Source: a virus. From it: a stretch of DNA of 37,408 nucleotides. The position numbers and the translations under genes are program-made. The stretch lies in IMG/VR virus record IMGVR_UViG_3300032086_000016, positions 1 to 37,408 of that record, one strand, 5' to 3'. Below the pieces are notes generated by a model. It had not been told where the DNA came from. It searched no databases and saw only the letters and a program-made list of their open reading frames with translations. Position 1 is the first letter of the stretch. Each line of letters opens with the position of its first letter. Shown here in pieces: positions 1 through 11,544 of this stretch.

Positions 1-290
1 TCTTGCGTACATGGTGCGCCACTAACTCCAGACATATATTTTCTATCATCCCATACTTCTTTTACAGAACCTTTAGGATACCTGGCAGATCTTACATGTT
101 CTATCGGATGGTCTAACCAATCCTGAACATCACGTAAAAATCTTTGGTTGTCGTCACCCTCTTCAAGTATAGGATTGTTAAGGATATGAATATCATTATC
201 CTTTCCGTAGGTATCTAAAGTAACCTTAGCTGCTACAGCAGATGCAGCACCGCAAGAAAACCACACAGCTATCTTTTGGTCTTTCATCAT
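1..290 (-). CDS. PP-loop / PAPS-reductase-like protein (partial, C-terminus outside window)
   Basis: The minus strand reads about 96 codons from an ATG at 290 to the window edge without a stop. The N-terminus carries WFSCGAASAVAAK, a form of the PP-loop ATP-binding motif of the PAPS reductase/adenine nucleotide alpha-hydrolase superfamily. Further on come NNPILEEGDDNQRFLRD and MSGVSGAPCT, which I recognise from phage proteins annotated as phosphoadenosine phosphosulfate reductase. Members of the superfamily adenylate or reduce substrates; the phage versions have no established substrate, so a role in sulfate reduction is not implied. The ATG overlaps the integrase stop (ATGA), so the two are translationally coupled. 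A second ATG follows at 287. Catalytic residues in the missing C-terminus cannot be checked. Confidence 0.8.
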   Translation of the reverse strand, partial: MMKDQKIAVWFSCGAASAVAAKVTLDTYGKDNDIHILNNPILEEGDDNQRFLRDVQDWLDHPIEHVRSARYPKGSVKEVWDDRKYMSGVSGAPCTQ

Positions 291-1171
291 TGTCTTTGTC
301 TCCTCTCAAGAGCATTGCTTGCAGTTTTGAAACTAAATTTATTGTACGGATTTAGACTCGAAACATTCTTGTGGCCAGACACTGACTGAATAGCCAGATG
401 ATCTACTCCACTTTCAATCATCTGAACTATCGCAGTCTTACGTAGATCCCCCACTCTCAGCTCGTCAGGAAGCCGTGCAATAGCCTTTACTTCTCCAAGC
501 AGGGCAGTCATTTGCATAACTGTTAGGGGCTTGTATGCACCGTCTGAGGGCTTGTGGTGAGGGACTACGTATTCTTGGAAGTCTAAGTCCTCTTTCTGCT
601 GAGATAACATCTCGAATAAATTATCTGGTATTGGTAATTCTACGGTAGCACCACGCTTGCTTTGCGTGATAGTAACCTTGCGTTGCTCTAGGTCTACGCT
701 ATCCCACGTAAGATTGCGTATGTCCACAGGACGTTGACCCCACTCATAACACATCAACACAATGAGTCCAATGCTACGATAATCAAAATTAGTAAATGCG
801 ACATCAAGAAAATCCATAACCTGATCGTGAGTCCATACGACAGAACGAGGGGTAGACGATCTCTTTTTAACTCTTGCCATTGGATTGTACAACAGTACAT
901 CAGTGGACACGAGATGGTTCATGAGAACGGAGAACACCCTTGCGTTATGGTTCGCATTGGAGGTAGAGGTTTCCGCTTCCCATGTATCGTATATCTCAAT
1001 ACACATCAGAGAGTTTATCTTATCAACTCTAACATTACCAAGTGTCTTTCCCATAATAGACATACGACAATAAGATGCCAGATTGTACTCGTAGTTCCTT
1101 TGAGTGGAGCGAGAGAGTGAAAGGAACTGACGAGTCCTTAAGTATTTATTTACAGCATCTTTTAATTTCAT
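287..1171 (-). CDS. int: Tyrosine recombinase / phage integrase
   Basis: This 294-residue protein has the size and layout of a phage tyrosine integrase: an N-terminal SAM-like core-binding region (about 1-100) and a C-terminal catalytic domain. Visible catalytic positions are Arg147 (GQRPVDIRNLTW), Lys172 (QSKRGATVELP), Arg244 (VGDLRKTA), His267 (SGHKNV) and the Tyr276 nucleophile (NPYNKF). The box II histidine of the usual HxxR is replaced by Gly241 (GDLR), a variant I have seen in related phage integrases. It would catalyse site-specific recombination between attP and a host site. The start ATG overlaps the stop of a 21-codon upstream ORF, and the stop overlaps the next gene, so it sits inside a coupled group driven by the promoter at 1322-1352. 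No attP site could be identified. Confidence 0.92.
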   Translation of the reverse strand: MKLKDAVNKYLRTRQFLSLSRSTQRNYEYNLASYCRMSIMGKTLGNVRVDKINSLMCIEIYDTWEAETSTSNANHNARVFSVLMNHLVSTDVLLYNPMARVKKRSSTPRSVVWTHDQVMDFLDVAFTNFDYRSIGLIVLMCYEWGQRPVDIRNLTWDSVDLEQRKVTITQSKRGATVELPIPDNLFEMLSQQKEDLDFQEYVVPHHKPSDGAYKPLTVMQMTALLGEVKAIARLPDELRVGDLRKTAIVQMIESGVDHLAIQSVSGHKNVSSLNPYNKFSFKTASNALERRQRQ

Positions 1172-1365: not shown

Positions 1366-2328
1366 TCACATATACCTCCTTGATACATAGCCATCCATGT
1401 AAGCATTAAAATGGCTGTTGTCCTCTATTTGGCATTCTTCCATTACATCATATGGATTGAAGCCATACTCAGCAAGCATCTCTGCAATGGCATACGGGTA
1501 GTCTAGAACTAGACTGTGTATTGCATCTACATTATCCTGTGATACATCGTAACCCCTTGAAACTCCAGCAGTTTTTCTATAGTAATTACCATACTCTACT
1601 ACACTAGGATCACGAACAAACACTAGCTTTGACCAGTCAGCGGACTCTAGTTTAGCCACAAGCTTATCAAGGTACAGCAGGTCTTGTGTCTCGTTGACAC
1701 CATGCTGACCATAGTAACCGACACTGATATTAGTACACTCAGAAACAACCATTGAGTACTCGTTGCTGTCTGTGTAAGAACCATTGCTATCAGCTACAAG
1801 CTCTGGCATATTAAGTGCATCGGCAAAAGACTGGGCAAACTCATCTGATGCAGTACGCAACCCCATCTGGTGAGTAATCACTGAGTTGTCACCATACCTG
1901 TCAAACGAGATCACTGCTTGAGTATCTGCCAACCATGCAGGGTAGTCAGTAACAAGTGCAGAGCTACCCTTACAGCCAACCTCCTCAGCTGCATGAACAA
2001 CATACGTACCCTCAATACCTGACTCAATCATACACAACAGTATGTATACGCCAGTAGTACAATCAGCACCAAGACAACTAGAAACTTTACTGTCTGCCAC
2101 TGAGACTACATCATTAGAAACAATAAGTTTCTGCATACCCTCTTGTTTGTGTACCGTATCATGGTGTGCAGTAAAGCATATCTTTGGCTGATCGCCAATG
2201 TGCAATATGTAATTACCATGTTCATCAGGTAAACCAAACACAGGTTCGAGAAACCTTTTACAAAACTGTCGTTGAGTGACAGTACCCTCTGGCCGCATGT
2301 AACGCAGCATTTCAATTATACTATGCAT
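1366..2328 (-). CDS. M20/M28-family-like zinc metallopeptidase
   Basis: The 320-residue protein carries the ordered metal-site signature of co-catalytic zinc exopeptidases. These are AHHDTV (His55, Asp57), LGADCTTG (Asp89), HAAEEVG (Glu115/Glu116), ISFDRYG (Asp143) and GQHGVNETQDL (His209). The last block resembles the terminal metal-binding motif of M20/M28 enzymes. Family members cleave peptides, acylated amino acids or similar amides; the substrate here is unknown. There is no signal peptide or membrane segment, so it should act in the cytoplasm. The C-terminal ~90 residues are a Tyr/Asp-rich tail outside the catalytic core. Its start overlaps the end of the upstream Cys/His-rich gene by 8 bp behind GGAGAG, so the two are coupled. 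All metal ligands look intact, suggesting an active enzyme, which is unusual for a phage early region. Confidence 0.8.
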   Translation of the reverse strand: MHSIIEMLRYMRPEGTVTQRQFCKRFLEPVFGLPDEHGNYILHIGDQPKICFTAHHDTVHKQEGMQKLIVSNDVVSVADSKVSSCLGADCTTGVYILLCMIESGIEGTYVVHAAEEVGCKGSSALVTDYPAWLADTQAVISFDRYGDNSVITHQMGLRTASDEFAQSFADALNMPELVADSNGSYTDSNEYSMVVSECTNISVGYYGQHGVNETQDLLYLDKLVAKLESADWSKLVFVRDPSVVEYGNYYRKTAGVSRGYDVSQDNVDAIHSLVLDYPYAIAEMLAEYGFNPYDVMEECQIEDNSHFNAYMDGYVSRRYM

Positions 2329-3916
2329 CTTTACTCTCTCCTTTTATCCATAGTCCACTATCATTATCTAAGACATAACCTGCCTCTTTAGCCTCATCTT
2401 TTGAGACTGACTCTGTATCCCCATGTTCATCAACAACATCTGCAAATTCATCATTAGGATACAACTCACCATCCCACGATGACCAAAAGTAATCATCAAG
2501 ATCAGCTGAGGAAATAAACTCATCTTCATACTCACAGTAATGTGCACAATCAACATGCCAGTACTCATGATCTGAACACATAACAAAGTTAGTACCATCT
2601 TCAAGTACCCACTGTGCGACAGTCTCCTCACACCTGCGGTCATTTCTCCAGAAAAAAGCAGTACCTGTCTCATTATGGTGTACGGACTCACCTGCCCAAT
2701 CACAGTAGTAATGATCATCATGGTAGCAATCAGGGCAATAGTGGTTGTCATTGTACTCAGAGTAGTAATACTCATCTTCTGAAACACCACAACCACACGA
2801 CTCACAGTGTGTATACGCAGAGCCAAGCACACCATTGTATTGGCTTGCATCAATTTCACCATAGTTACTGACCACAAGATATTTACCACAATCAGACTCT
2901 TCTAAAGACTGTGGAGATAGATCAATGTATGGCGCAATGAAGCCATCCTCATAATCACGACGAGAAAGCCTTGCACCTATCCAACAAGATGATCCAAACT
3001 TTACTGCACCAATAGTTTCTAGGTGATTGATAATCATATCAATGGCTTGCTCAGATACACCATACACAGGACTAGGCTGTGGGTTGCCACTGTCATGTTT
3101 CTTGTAGACAACACAGCGTCCTCCAATCAAGCCATCCTCATCAGTAACATAGACAATATCAAAATCACCGCTGGCATATGCCTCAGCAGGGTGCATCGGT
3201 AGATGCTCAAAGTCATACCGCATACAACTGTGAGCTAGATGCTTGCGCCAACAGCTTGTGTGAATGTTCTCAGTCTCTGACTGAACACCTGCATACGCAA
3301 GCTTGAAAGACTCAGCATCACTGGCCGTATGTACTGTGAATGTACGAGGCGCAAACCTCTGCAAAAACTCATCAGTAAGTTGAATGATAACCTTGTGCTC
3401 AAGCTCAGGAAACATCAAGCTGAATGCACGACCAGGTTTCATGGCTACCTCACGACCATCATCACGATCTTTGTGTGATTGATAGACTGTAATTTTACCC
3501 TTGTATTGTTTAGAACGTCTGGCATTGAATGCACGTAGACGAAAGGTAGGTCTGCAAGTATGGCCTAGAAAAGGTATCTTTCGTTGCAACCAGTCTTGCA
3601 AGTCAATGTCTGCTGCATGAAACATATCAAAAGATTTGTAGTCACCCCACTCACGAAGCACTGGATCTACTTCATCAGGATCTTCACGATACTGTTTCTT
3701 GACAACAAAACCATACTTAGTTGGTTCAACGACGTAGACAAACTTACCATTAGCCAGTTGCACATTACCTGCGAATGGAACTTTAGGATCATCAGCTCGC
3801 CACTCCACATTGTCAAACAGGTGCGGTTGATATGCAACCAGTCCGTCAAATATATCATCGCCATAATGATTCTTGATTTCATTACCGTCTACAGGAACAA
3901 GAGTATAATTAGCCAT
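2321..3916 (-). CDS. Large Cys/His-rich acidic protein of unknown function
   Basis: The start at 3916 (MANYTLVPVDG) is chosen because GGAGG lies 7 nt upstream; an ATG at 3943 lies inside the preceding gene and lacks such a site. The product is 531 residues. The N-terminal two thirds show no family I can name. Roughly residues 365-460 form a dense Cys/His cluster (HCESCGCG, HYCPDCYHDDHYYCDW, CSDHEYWHVDCAHYC) typical of zinc-ribbon or zinc-finger folds binding several metal ions. The C-terminus is acidic and aromatic-rich. It is coupled to the metallopeptidase downstream (8-bp overlap) and follows the glycosylase-like gene with a 1-nt gap. A regulatory, protein-binding or nucleic-acid-binding role is possible, but nothing decides between them. 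Confidence 0.75.
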   Translation of the reverse strand: MANYTLVPVDGNEIKNHYGDDIFDGLVAYQPHLFDNVEWRADDPKVPFAGNVQLANGKFVYVVEPTKYGFVVKKQYREDPDEVDPVLREWGDYKSFDMFHAADIDLQDWLQRKIPFLGHTCRPTFRLRAFNARRSKQYKGKITVYQSHKDRDDGREVAMKPGRAFSLMFPELEHKVIIQLTDEFLQRFAPRTFTVHTASDAESFKLAYAGVQSETENIHTSCWRKHLAHSCMRYDFEHLPMHPAEAYASGDFDIVYVTDEDGLIGGRCVVYKKHDSGNPQPSPVYGVSEQAIDMIINHLETIGAVKFGSSCWIGARLSRRDYEDGFIAPYIDLSPQSLEESDCGKYLVVSNYGEIDASQYNGVLGSAYTHCESCGCGVSEDEYYYSEYNDNHYCPDCYHDDHYYCDWAGESVHHNETGTAFFWRNDRRCEETVAQWVLEDGTNFVMCSDHEYWHVDCAHYCEYEDEFISSADLDDYFWSSWDGELYPNDEFADVVDEHGDTESVSKDEAKEAGYVLDNDSGLWIKGESKDA

Positions 3917-3917
3917 A

Positions 3918-4409
3918 TCAATACCTCCATTGTGGCTCCTCACCCCAACGCCAAGTCAAAGTGATATTACGTTCTTTCCAACGATCATTCATGTACATAC
4001 GATACGCTTGATGCACATCATCAACATCTGAATAATCAACTCCACGTTCTAAGTTTCTAGCACAGTTAGCAAACTCTGTCAACTCCTCATTCGGAAATTC
4101 ACCGTTGTCTACATACTGTTGAAACAAAGGAATAAGTCGGGCAGACTTGTGTGCGCCAGACTTCTGATTGAATAGCCAACTCATGTGACTGAGCAGCCAC
4201 TTGAAGTTAGCACGAGATCGCCTTGCCCATTTACTGCATGGATGATTGATGTACGCCAATTTGTACACGGGCAAGGTTGTGTCAGGATCAAGCCAACGTA
4301 CTGCGGTGGACAACATCTGAGCAGACTCAAGAATCATCTTGTTCTTACGGACATCATCCAACCACAGTGCGGATTGCATAGGACACTTGTCGAATGCGAA
4401 TATATTCAT
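3918..4409 (-). CDS. Pyrimidine-dimer glycosylase-like conserved phage protein
   Basis: The 163-residue protein opens with MNIFAFD and KMILESAQMLSTAVRW, followed by INHPCSKWARRSRANFKWLL, HKSARLIPLF and DDVHQAYRMYM. This arrangement matches a family common in T4-like and marine phages that is annotated either hypothetical or as related to pyrimidine dimer DNA glycosylase/endonuclease V. Enzymes of that family excise UV dimers. I did not verify a catalytic residue, so repair activity is an inference from resemblance. Start: ATG at 4409 with GGAGG 4 nt upstream is preferred to the GTG at 4412. The ATG overlaps the stop of the upstream HTH gene (TGATG). Confidence 0.65.
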   Translation of the reverse strand: MNIFAFDKCPMQSALWLDDVRKNKMILESAQMLSTAVRWLDPDTTLPVYKLAYINHPCSKWARRSRANFKWLLSHMSWLFNQKSGAHKSARLIPLFQQYVDNGEFPNEELTEFANCARNLERGVDYSDVDDVHQAYRMYMNDRWKERNITLTWRWGEEPQWRY

Positions 4410-4753
4410 CACACCTCCATGAATAGTGCTTTTACAGATTTGAGTAGTCTGGCATCTGCCTCTACTTTTTCGAGTCGTTGTTGCAACTCTACTACCTGAG
4501 CCTGTAACTGACCATTCTCTTTCTTGGTAATCATAAAGTTTTTACGATCACGTTTCTGCACACTGGGTTGTAACTCCTCAGTATACAAATTGTAATTAAA
4601 GAACTTGTTACGATACCCAAGAGCATTACGCCATCTGTGTAAACTCTTTCTAGTAATACCATACTTGGCAATGGTTTGATCGCCAGTATGATTGTCGTAA
4701 TACTTGCAAACCTCATGTTTGAACTCAATCGGAAATCTTGCACGTTTGTCCAT
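4409..4753 (-). CDS. Helix-turn-helix plus coiled-coil protein
   Basis: The product has 114 residues. Residues 1-50 (FPIEFKHEVCKYY, QTIAKYGITRKSLHRWRNAL) read as a homeodomain-like helix-turn-helix of the kind at the N-terminus of IS3-type transposase OrfA proteins. Residues about 75-110 (NGQLQAQVVELQQRLEKVEA) form a heptad coiled coil, suggesting a dimer. There is no transposase catalytic partner and no inverted repeats, so it is more likely a domesticated DNA-binding protein. It is the only obvious DNA-binding regulator candidate in the leftward operon. A GGAG site precedes the ATG, and the stop overlaps the next start. Confidence 0.7.
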   Translation of the reverse strand: MDKRARFPIEFKHEVCKYYDNHTGDQTIAKYGITRKSLHRWRNALGYRNKFFNYNLYTEELQPSVQKRDRKNFMITKKENGQLQAQVVELQQRLEKVEADARLLKSVKALFMEV

Positions 4754-5092: not shown

Positions 5093-5205
5093 TTCATTAA
5101 TCCTTCACAAATTCTGCGGTCAGTGGATATGATAATGATCTTACCGTTATCACCATACAATATCCACTTCTTACCACGTTGCACCAATTTCATTATGTCC
5201 ATCAT
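5089..5205 (-). CDS. 38-residue hypothetical protein
   Basis: The ORF reads MMDIMKLVQRGKKWILYGDN and continues through KIIIISTDRRICEGLMK. The ATG at 5205 (a second follows at 5202) overlaps the stop of the upstream gene in an ATGA junction. A GGAGG sits immediately upstream (complement of 5207-5211). The stop overlaps the next start. The pattern suggests a small beta-strand fold; no family is recognised. Confidence 0.5.
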   Translation of the reverse strand: MMDIMKLVQRGKKWILYGDNGKIIIISTDRRICEGLMK

Positions 5206-5561
5206 ACCTCCTCTACATAAACGTGTGGCCTGTTGTTTTCATCCAATACTAAGATGGCATACTTTGCCTCATGTATTGGTTCGTGAGTATCCACATCGTA
5301 AAAATAACCGTACTTGTACGGATCATACTTAACTCTTTTTAATCCGTCAACATCTGGTTTTGCATCCAAAGTTTTCATCTCACCTTTTAGGAAAGCATGA
5401 ACATTCTTTTGCTTATCTCTAAGCACAGCTGCCCTACCACCTGCTCTCACCACAAAAATTGGTCTATCAACTTTCACAGCTTTTGCATATGATACAGGCA
5501 CACTCTTTGCACGGATAGAATATATCCGTTTATTAATGTTGTAGTAAATTTCTCTGATCAT
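5202..5561 (-). CDS. Conserved phage hypothetical protein (119 aa)
   Basis: The ATG at 5561 (MIREIYYNINKRIYS) is chosen because GGAGG lies 9 nt upstream (complement of 5571-5575). The open frame extends further upstream only by running through the preceding gene. The protein contains VRAGGRAAVLRDKQKNVHAF and YDPYKYGYFYD, which I have seen in marine phage hypothetical proteins. The first ~60 residues are basic and the last part is acidic (DENNRPHVYVEEV). The function is unknown; its position among small coupled genes suggests an early role. Confidence 0.65.
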   Translation of the reverse strand: MIREIYYNINKRIYSIRAKSVPVSYAKAVKVDRPIFVVRAGGRAAVLRDKQKNVHAFLKGEMKTLDAKPDVDGLKRVKYDPYKYGYFYDVDTHEPIHEAKYAILVLDENNRPHVYVEEV

Positions 5562-5565
5562 TCTA

Positions 5566-5775
5566 CTACACCTCCTCATATCTAGCATTATATCTGCACC
5601 TTGCAGCCCACTTACGTTCTGCCAGCGTTGCTTCTCGTGCATCCTCATCCCACTCCATCATCTGCTCCACACTATCCCATCCGAGATCAGACTTAGCAGG
5701 ATCAGGAGTATCTGTCAAGCTTCCATCAGGCTGCACATAGAACGGCCATGAATCACTTGTAATATACATCTTCAT
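5566..5775 (-). CDS. 69-residue hypothetical protein downstream of tRNA-Trp
   Basis: The start at 5775 (MKMYITSDSWPFYVQPDGSL) is preferred to an ATG at 5787 because GAGGT lies 5 nt upstream. The N-terminal half is a beta-like segment. The C-terminal half (DSVEQMMEWDEDAREATLAE) is a charged helix ending RCRYNARYEEV. It is the first protein gene after the tRNA in the leftward direction. No family is recognised. Confidence 0.55.
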   Translation of the reverse strand: MKMYITSDSWPFYVQPDGSLTDTPDPAKSDLGWDSVEQMMEWDEDAREATLAERKWAARCRYNARYEEV

Positions 5776-5793: not shown

Positions 5794-5867
5794 TGGCAGG
5801 GGTACTAGGAATTGAACCCAGTCTTTCGGATTTGGAATCCGATGTGCTACCGTAACACTTCACCCCT
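5794..5867 (-). tRNA. tRNA-Trp (anticodon CCA)
   Basis: The minus strand folds into a complete cloverleaf. The acceptor AGGGGTG pairs with TACCCCT. The D arm is built on GTG...CAC. The anticodon stem TCGGA/TCCGA has the loop TTCCAAA, which puts CCA at positions 34-36. The T arm CTGGG/CCTAG carries loop TTCAATT, followed by discriminator G and an encoded CCA end. It decodes UGG. With all elements present it is probably functional rather than an attachment-site remnant. It lies between two leftward protein genes and is presumably cut from a polycistronic transcript. Confidence 0.93.
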
Positions 5868-10863: not shown

Positions 10864-11544
10864 ATGCCCTATTTAACAAGTAGCATTCCGCATTTCAAAG
10901 CGTGGGTTCGTAGAGAATACACAAAAAACTTAGAAGAGTATCATGGAGAGTTCCTACATTGCATGGTCATTGGCGTCACTACTATGCCAAACAGGACTCT
11001 CAGCTTTCAAGTTATTTTTACAGGCTGCGAGTCTGACTTTGATGATGGTCCCAATATACATGGCGGTGCGATGTGGGCTAGATTACCTCTTGTAGCTTTG
11101 GTGGCAGATACCCCCCTAGAAGATTGGCCAGAAGAGTTACCACCGTATTTAGCACAACCTTGGGATTGTATGTCGCACTACCACAGTGTTTACAAGTTAG
11201 AACGTGCAAGCCCAGCGCCTTGGATTGCAAAGGTAGACGGAGAGTTTTACCCAGCTAAATATTACTTTACTGTAGATTACACAGACAGTGAAGTTGCAGA
11301 CGACCCAGCACAACACAAACAGTCTCACGTACTAGAGTTGCTAGACGCTGGAGAATACACAGGTAACATTGTTGCATTACCCAATAACAGAGTGAGGGTA
11401 ACTCACCCAGCTTGGTTTGAAACAGGAGAAGGTGCTCCAGACTTTAAACCAAACCAACATGTGTACAATTCAAAAGAAGATGTAGACTACGTGTGGAATA
11501 CACAAAGAGTTTTCAATAATTTATACAGTGAGGAAGAACAATGA
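10864..11544 (+). CDS. Conserved phage hypothetical protein (226 aa)
   Basis: The protein opens MPYLTSSIPHFKAWVRREYT and contains FQVIFTGCESDFDDGPNIHG, GAMWARLPLVALV and a C-terminal block VRVTHPAWFETGEGAPDFKP. It looks like one or two beta-rich domains with no membrane segment or signal peptide. The family is one I have seen in marine phages without functional assignment. It is followed by the KGG-repeat gene with a 4-nt overlap. A virion role is possible because it lies in the late operon, but there is no direct sign of it. Confidence 0.65.
   Translation: MPYLTSSIPHFKAWVRREYTKNLEEYHGEFLHCMVIGVTTMPNRTLSFQVIFTGCESDFDDGPNIHGGAMWARLPLVALVADTPLEDWPEELPPYLAQPWDCMSHYHSVYKLERASPAPWIAKVDGEFYPAKYYFTVDYTDSEVADDPAQHKQSHVLELLDAGEYTGNIVALPNNRVRVTHPAWFETGEGAPDFKPNQHVYNSKEDVDYVWNTQRVFNNLYSEEEQ

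Follow-up and report, generated by a model that had tools for sequence, protein, structure and literature searches.

A putative di-zinc peptidase and a Ser-Cys-Met protein are encoded as a pair in phages, plasmids and conjugative elements

A gene for a putative di-zinc peptidase and a gene for a large partner without a named family, here called the SCM protein, are linked in podoviruses, Autographiviridae, a Thermus phage and Cellulophaga (crAss-like) phages, and also in proteobacterial plasmids and Bacteroidales conjugative elements, with a gene order that varies. This pairing is firm. It was studied starting from the copy in a 37,408-nucleotide stretch of viral DNA (IMG/VR record IMGVR_UViG_3300032086_000016, positions 1 to 37,408), the whole of which is referred to below as the window. 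The original prediction, made from the letters of this DNA, had proposed that the two proteins may form a two-part system acting on host peptides or on a modified amino-acid substrate. Taken as a whole, this interpretation is partly supported; for the proposed coupling of two parts into one system, co-occurrence of the genes in viral contigs, plasmids and Bacteroidales provides strong support.

The gene pair in the window and its peptidase

The two genes overlap as originally described (Table 1), making translational coupling of partner and peptidase possible, and in most homologous pairs the genes overlap or are separated by short gaps. The partner has an alternative GTG start at position 3943, which would extend it to 540 aa and would overlap the PHROG 624 gene, located 1 bp from the partner ATG. 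A tyrosine integrase gene (287-1171, minus strand) adjoins the pair, and the phage carries a tRNA-Trp gene (5794-5867, minus strand); the phage may be temperate. Judged from position, an early-operon placement of the pair is plausible. Elsewhere in the window are a ferredoxin-like auxiliary gene (10864-11544, plus strand; PHROG 3704, E 3e-29) and a relative of mycobacteriophage L5 gp82 (5202-5648, minus strand; Pfam PF25735, E 2e-20), whose family has no known function. A phage RNA polymerase domain turned up neither in the window nor in 14 relatives, but the controls of this search came back empty as well.

Table 1. Features of the gene pair and its upstream neighbour in the window.
Feature	Position	Strand	Basis or remark
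Peptidase, putative clan MH di-zinc (M28/M20/M42-like), 320 aa	1366..2328	-	profiles, ligands, predicted structure
HHD motif, His55-x-Asp57 metal ligands	2158..2166	-	sequence; invariant
Asp89, bridging metal ligand	2062..2064	-	invariant
Glu115-Glu116, catalytic base and ligand	1981..1986	-	invariant
Asp143, metal ligand	1900..1902	-	invariant
His209, metal ligand in PepT-like 'GY..H..NE' motif	1702..1704	-	invariant; PepT alignment
Overlap (8 bp) of partner stop and peptidase start	2321..2328	-	ORF calls
Partner 'SCM protein', 531 aa from ATG, without named family	2321..3916	-	
Partner conserved core, residues ~190-340	2897..3349	-	GNAT-like in model; remote-homology core
Ser230-Cys231-Met232, invariant, in predicted a1-a2 loop	3221..3229	-	alignments of homologues
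Pro329-Tyr330-x-Asp332, Pro and Asp invariant	2921..2932	-	alignments of homologues
Partner C-terminal Cys/His-rich region (LIM/zinc-ribbon-like), residues ~371-487	2456..2806	-	
PHROG 624 'DNA binding protein' gene, directly upstream of partner	3918..4412	-	outside conserved pair

The claim that the peptidase retains all co-catalytic zinc ligands was confirmed. The seven ligand or catalytic residues of the di-zinc site (His55, Asp57, Asp89, Glu115, Glu116, Asp143 and His209) are present in the window peptidase, and are unchanged across 31 aligned homologues and in 14 representatives from differing phages, plasmids and conjugative elements. The protein matches Pfam M28 (24.8 bits, cut-off 21.3) and PHROG 4191 'peptidase' (E 8e-73), and its predicted structure resembles TET/M42, PepT and DapE (best E 6e-8). 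Ligand geometry had been named as a point on which the prediction could fail; the ligands, and the fold in the model, agree with the di-zinc exopeptidases. Ligands and family profile together point to a clan MH di-zinc peptidase with putative activity.

The fold, the co-catalytic ligands and a PepT-like C-terminal motif are common to this peptidase and to PHROG 4191 and M28, with their nearest solved structures PepT, TET/M42 and DapE. By contrast with these relatives, it carries neither an M20 lid nor an M42 insertion, and it is tied to the SCM gene. Against the M20 PepT-like model TIGR01883 it scores 12.9 bits versus a cut-off of 274. The M20 lid domain between the fourth and fifth ligands is absent, the Asp143-His209 spacing being only 66 residues, and the M42 PDZ-like insertion is likewise absent, with a His55-Asp89 spacing of 34 residues. 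Because there is no space for either element, the peptidase appears to consist of a minimal catalytic domain and a helical extension. The suggestion that an enzyme of this kind is unusual in a phage did not hold, since it occurs in 365 phage records, chiefly Autographiviridae of Klebsiella, Pectobacterium and Vibrio.

Linkage across phages, plasmids and conjugative elements

Scanning IMG/VR viral contigs for the peptidase yielded 65 loci, grouped into 31 clusters at 95% identity. At 60/65 of these loci the partner lies directly upstream on the same strand and at one (L065) it is divergent, and at the remaining four the contig breaks off less than 400 bp from the start of the peptidase, so that the partner is present at 61/61 loci having sufficient upstream sequence. 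In the reverse direction, the partner as query retrieved 81 loci, of which four are truncated and 76 have the peptidase adjoining, corresponding to an adjacent intact peptidase at 76/77 assessable loci. The exception (L142:6001-8594) has frameshifts that break both genes, which are still neighbours. Neither a lone peptidase nor a lone partner was found among the assessable loci of these viral-contig scans. A complete lack of co-occurrence among homologues had been named beforehand as refuting the coupling; co-occurrence was observed in both directions.

In cultured phages, the ORFs upstream of the peptidase in KpV475, SFN6B, PhiM1, Peat1, YMC11, MA2, VpM9 and Pasto are remote partner homologues (hmmsearch over these eight sequences, E 6e-54 to 5e-5). 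Those of KpV475, PhiM1, YMC11 and VpM9 belong to PHROG 6980 or PHROG 13313 (KP34p10, PhiM1_09), families located directly upstream of the peptidase, whereas the window partner scores against neither PHROG model. Counts of records by organism for peptidase and partner genes agree, at 230 and 231 in Klebsiella, 42 and 42 in Vibrio, 51 and 51 in Pectobacterium, 10 and 10 in Escherichia, and 4 and 4 in Shigella. These neighbouring core genes had been reported as a hypothetical gene beside a 'putative peptidase', with no function given and no link to other elements reported (PMC4411677, PMC6115819).

The pair recurs in unrelated elements. In the megaphage LR756501 an SCM core adjoins a peptidase and is divergently transcribed, in Thermus phage TSP4 the peptidase has SCM genes on both sides, and in the crAss-like Cellulophaga phage phi38:1, whose peptidase matches the A2 profile (E 3e-18), the pair is present with gene order reversed. 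Profile-profile comparison joins the podovirus partner family to the megaphage/Cellulophaga/Thermus family (probability 97.5, E 6e-12). Searching plasmids by tblastn with the peptidase matched six records, and an SCM gene lies directly upstream in 6/6; plasmids of Methylobacterium and Phocaeicola carry tandem double SCM-peptidase pairs (L281:1-6584 and L283:1-5825). A bacterial-genome scan with alignment A1 returned no relative. A search with a single Parabacteroides protein found SCM loci on Bacteroidales chromosomes, with the peptidase directly downstream, within ~20 bp, at 8/8. The pair in Bacteroidales neighbours DUF4121 and N6-methylase genes, and a plasmid copy adjoins tra genes. Divergence of the peptidase correlates with that of the partner (Mantel r 0.83 for 30 pairs and r 0.66 for 14 representatives, P <= 2e-4), which shows co-inheritance rather than function.

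The linkage has limits. The peptidase occurs within 5 kb at just 7/80 SCM loci of jumbo phages. Both genes are present in 22/36 jumbo-phage contigs overall, and in 11/12 of those over 170 kb. Two megaphages contain 8 and 16 SCM matches with five peptidases in each, and rotation tests for SCM-peptidase proximity in these two genomes were not significant (P 0.07 and 0.32). At the megaphage loci L170-L194 (LR756501, LR745206), SCM-core genes are multi-copy, often in tandem arrays, and outnumber the peptidase. In Thermus phage G20c the SCM match is weak and lies far from the peptidase. In Bradyrhizobium, seven plasmid records gave a match to the SCM query, and no peptidase was found near the SCM gene in the single record inspected, a large plasmid whose lone SCM gene (L293:4782-5828) is close to a phosphoenolpyruvate mutase gene.

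The SCM protein

The profile search proposed for both proteins, which placed the peptidase in M28 and PHROG 4191, assigned the partner to no family, with zero matches in Pfam, PHROG, NCBIfam and PADLOC. The original description of the partner as lacking a named family therefore stands, and its description as a zinc-cluster protein proved too narrow, since the protein also has a conserved enzyme-like core. Several cysteines and histidines in the Cys/His-rich C-terminal third are conserved (C371, C374, C394, C397, H402, C405, H413 and C447), suggesting metal binding, and some relatives weakly match LIM/zinc-ribbon models. The best-conserved part is the SCM...PYxD core and not this Cys-rich tail, of which several homologues have a short or dissimilar version. 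The shared core consists, in order, of Ser-Cys-Met, a Tyr, an Arg, a Tyr and Pro-Tyr-x-Asp.

An AlphaFold2 model of the partner from 46 sequences (mean pLDDT 88, pTM 0.56) predicts the topology b1-a1-(SCM loop)-a2-b2-b3-b4-a3-b5 for the core, a strand and helix order like that of the GNAT superfamily. In a Foldseek search of the PDB with this model, the top 50 matches are nearly all GNATs and relatives (Eis2, GCN5, L-PGS, TofI), with modest statistics (best match E 0.026, probability 0.94). Unlike GNATs, the partner has no GNAT profile match, with an hhalign probability of 0.2 against a small, low-power set of six GNATs (positive control 98.9); no CoA-binding P-loop (RxxGxG/A) was found on reading its conserved core, and it has an invariant Ser-Cys-Met. 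Comparison of the partner profile with PDB sequences gave chance-level matches only. Given the modest Foldseek statistics and the negative six-GNAT profile test, the partner is described as GNAT-like by predicted topology only, and its enzyme class is tentative. In the GNAT fold, the a1-a2 loop faces the acceptor. The location of the SCM cysteine in the corresponding loop of the model would suit a catalytic role, as we infer.

Two other relationships were considered. PcfJ (PF14284), suggested as a relative of the SCM core by an 'HCV' motif, was rejected (hhalign probability 1). The BFVD model A0A6J7X5D3, a phage 'Amidoligase enzyme', shows a weak structural match to part of the partner model (rmsd 4.4 over 121 columns), which may reflect a common Cys-rich tail. 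An Amidoligase_2 gene was found in 0/6 pair-bearing records, the controls of this search being empty as well.

Possible roles of the pair

In both proteins, sets of polar residues stay invariant across very distant relatives, indicating that both are under selection as functional proteins, and both are probably active. The best explanation that we can offer, with a likelihood somewhat short of even, is a conserved two-enzyme module of mobile elements that is used early, in which the partner transfers a group and the peptidase trims, removes or exposes. The partner would be a transferase with a GNAT-like core and an invariant cysteine on the acceptor side, its zinc-binding tail selecting the target, and it would couple an aminoacyl, acyl or peptide group to an amine on a host protein, peptide or small molecule. 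As a dedicated aminopeptidase or deacylase, the peptidase would trim or remove this group, or expose the amine beforehand. In its simplest form the scheme would have both enzymes working on one substrate soon after entry: the SCM protein puts a group on an amine or takes one off, and the peptidase trims or removes it. Made early, at entry or establishment, the pair would blunt a host function or defence. Early timing is suggested by the position of the pair before the primase/helicase genes in Autographiviridae and by two of its neighbours, ArdA, which it adjoins in phage Pasto, and the DNA methylase gene. A precedent for a phage GNAT acting on host proteins is Rac of phiKMV, which triggers RNAP alpha cleavage (PMC7552054); it comes from a related phage family, and its transferase-plus-proteolysis logic is like that proposed for the SCM pair. 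As described there, Rac is set apart by its location downstream of the phage RNAP gene, its CoA pocket and its use of host proteases. A bolder proposal, and a doubtful one, is that the SCM proteins make up a superfamily of their own, consisting of GNAT-like transferases that depend on a cysteine. Together with the dedicated di-zinc peptidase they would constitute a hitherto undescribed system for modifying proteins or metabolites, which phages, plasmids and conjugative elements would direct against the host.

The pair might instead serve nutrition or turnover, with the peptidase finishing the breakdown of host peptides for virion synthesis, and the Cys-rich protein acting as a metal chaperone, adaptor or regulator. 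This is unlikely: the peptidase fold is indeed nearest to the broad aminopeptidases TET/M42 and PepT, and the partner tail is Cys/His-rich with LIM/zinc-ribbon-like matches, but the pair is also found on plasmids and conjugative elements, for which bursts of amino acids are not a requirement, and the enzyme-like core outranks the variable tail in conservation. Another alternative is that the pair disables one specific host defence, for instance through modification of a defence protein or through alteration or hydrolysis of a signal molecule; it shares its role with the two-enzyme module and differs as a defence-specific claim. Domains that phages have in common with conjugative elements are characteristic of functions in early conflict (PMC5512222), which the sharing of the pair among phages, plasmids and conjugative elements fits, as do ArdA in Pasto and the DNA methylase gene in Bacteroidales. 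The argument from neighbours is however indirect, and neither protein matches any model of PADLOC 2.0, a library of defence rather than counter-defence proteins; we regard this narrower claim, too, as improbable.

A toxin-antitoxin or addiction system, in which the GNAT-like protein would modify aminoacyl-tRNA, translation or some other process of the host and the peptidase would relieve the effect, would suit the overlapping genes and the double tandem pairs on the Methylobacterium and Phocaeicola plasmids; it is very improbable given that both proteins are large, that lytic phages carry them, that gene order varies, that some elements have several SCM genes per peptidase, and that the Bradyrhizobium plasmid has an SCM gene alone. 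Least probable is plain inherited synteny of the phage early region without functional linkage, since, although related podoviruses, whose common descent preserves order, supply most linked cases, the two genes are again found linked in phages, plasmids and conjugative elements that are unrelated and in which the neighbours differ, as does the order or orientation.

No paper describing the peptidase-SCM pair was found in the open-licence literature. The single genes are already in databases; what is new is the two-gene system, nothing similar being described in the libraries and papers searched. Its joint spread among phages, plasmids and integrating conjugative elements that are unrelated makes the pair look like an undescribed two-part tool used by invading DNA inside the host cell. 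Its carriers include cultured phages of Klebsiella, Pectobacterium, Vibrio, Cellulophaga and Bradyrhizobium as well as Bacteroidales conjugative elements, making the pair testable now. Two genes annotated just as 'hypothetical' and 'putative peptidase', and kept together in this way, point to an unnamed task in cell invasion that these elements share.
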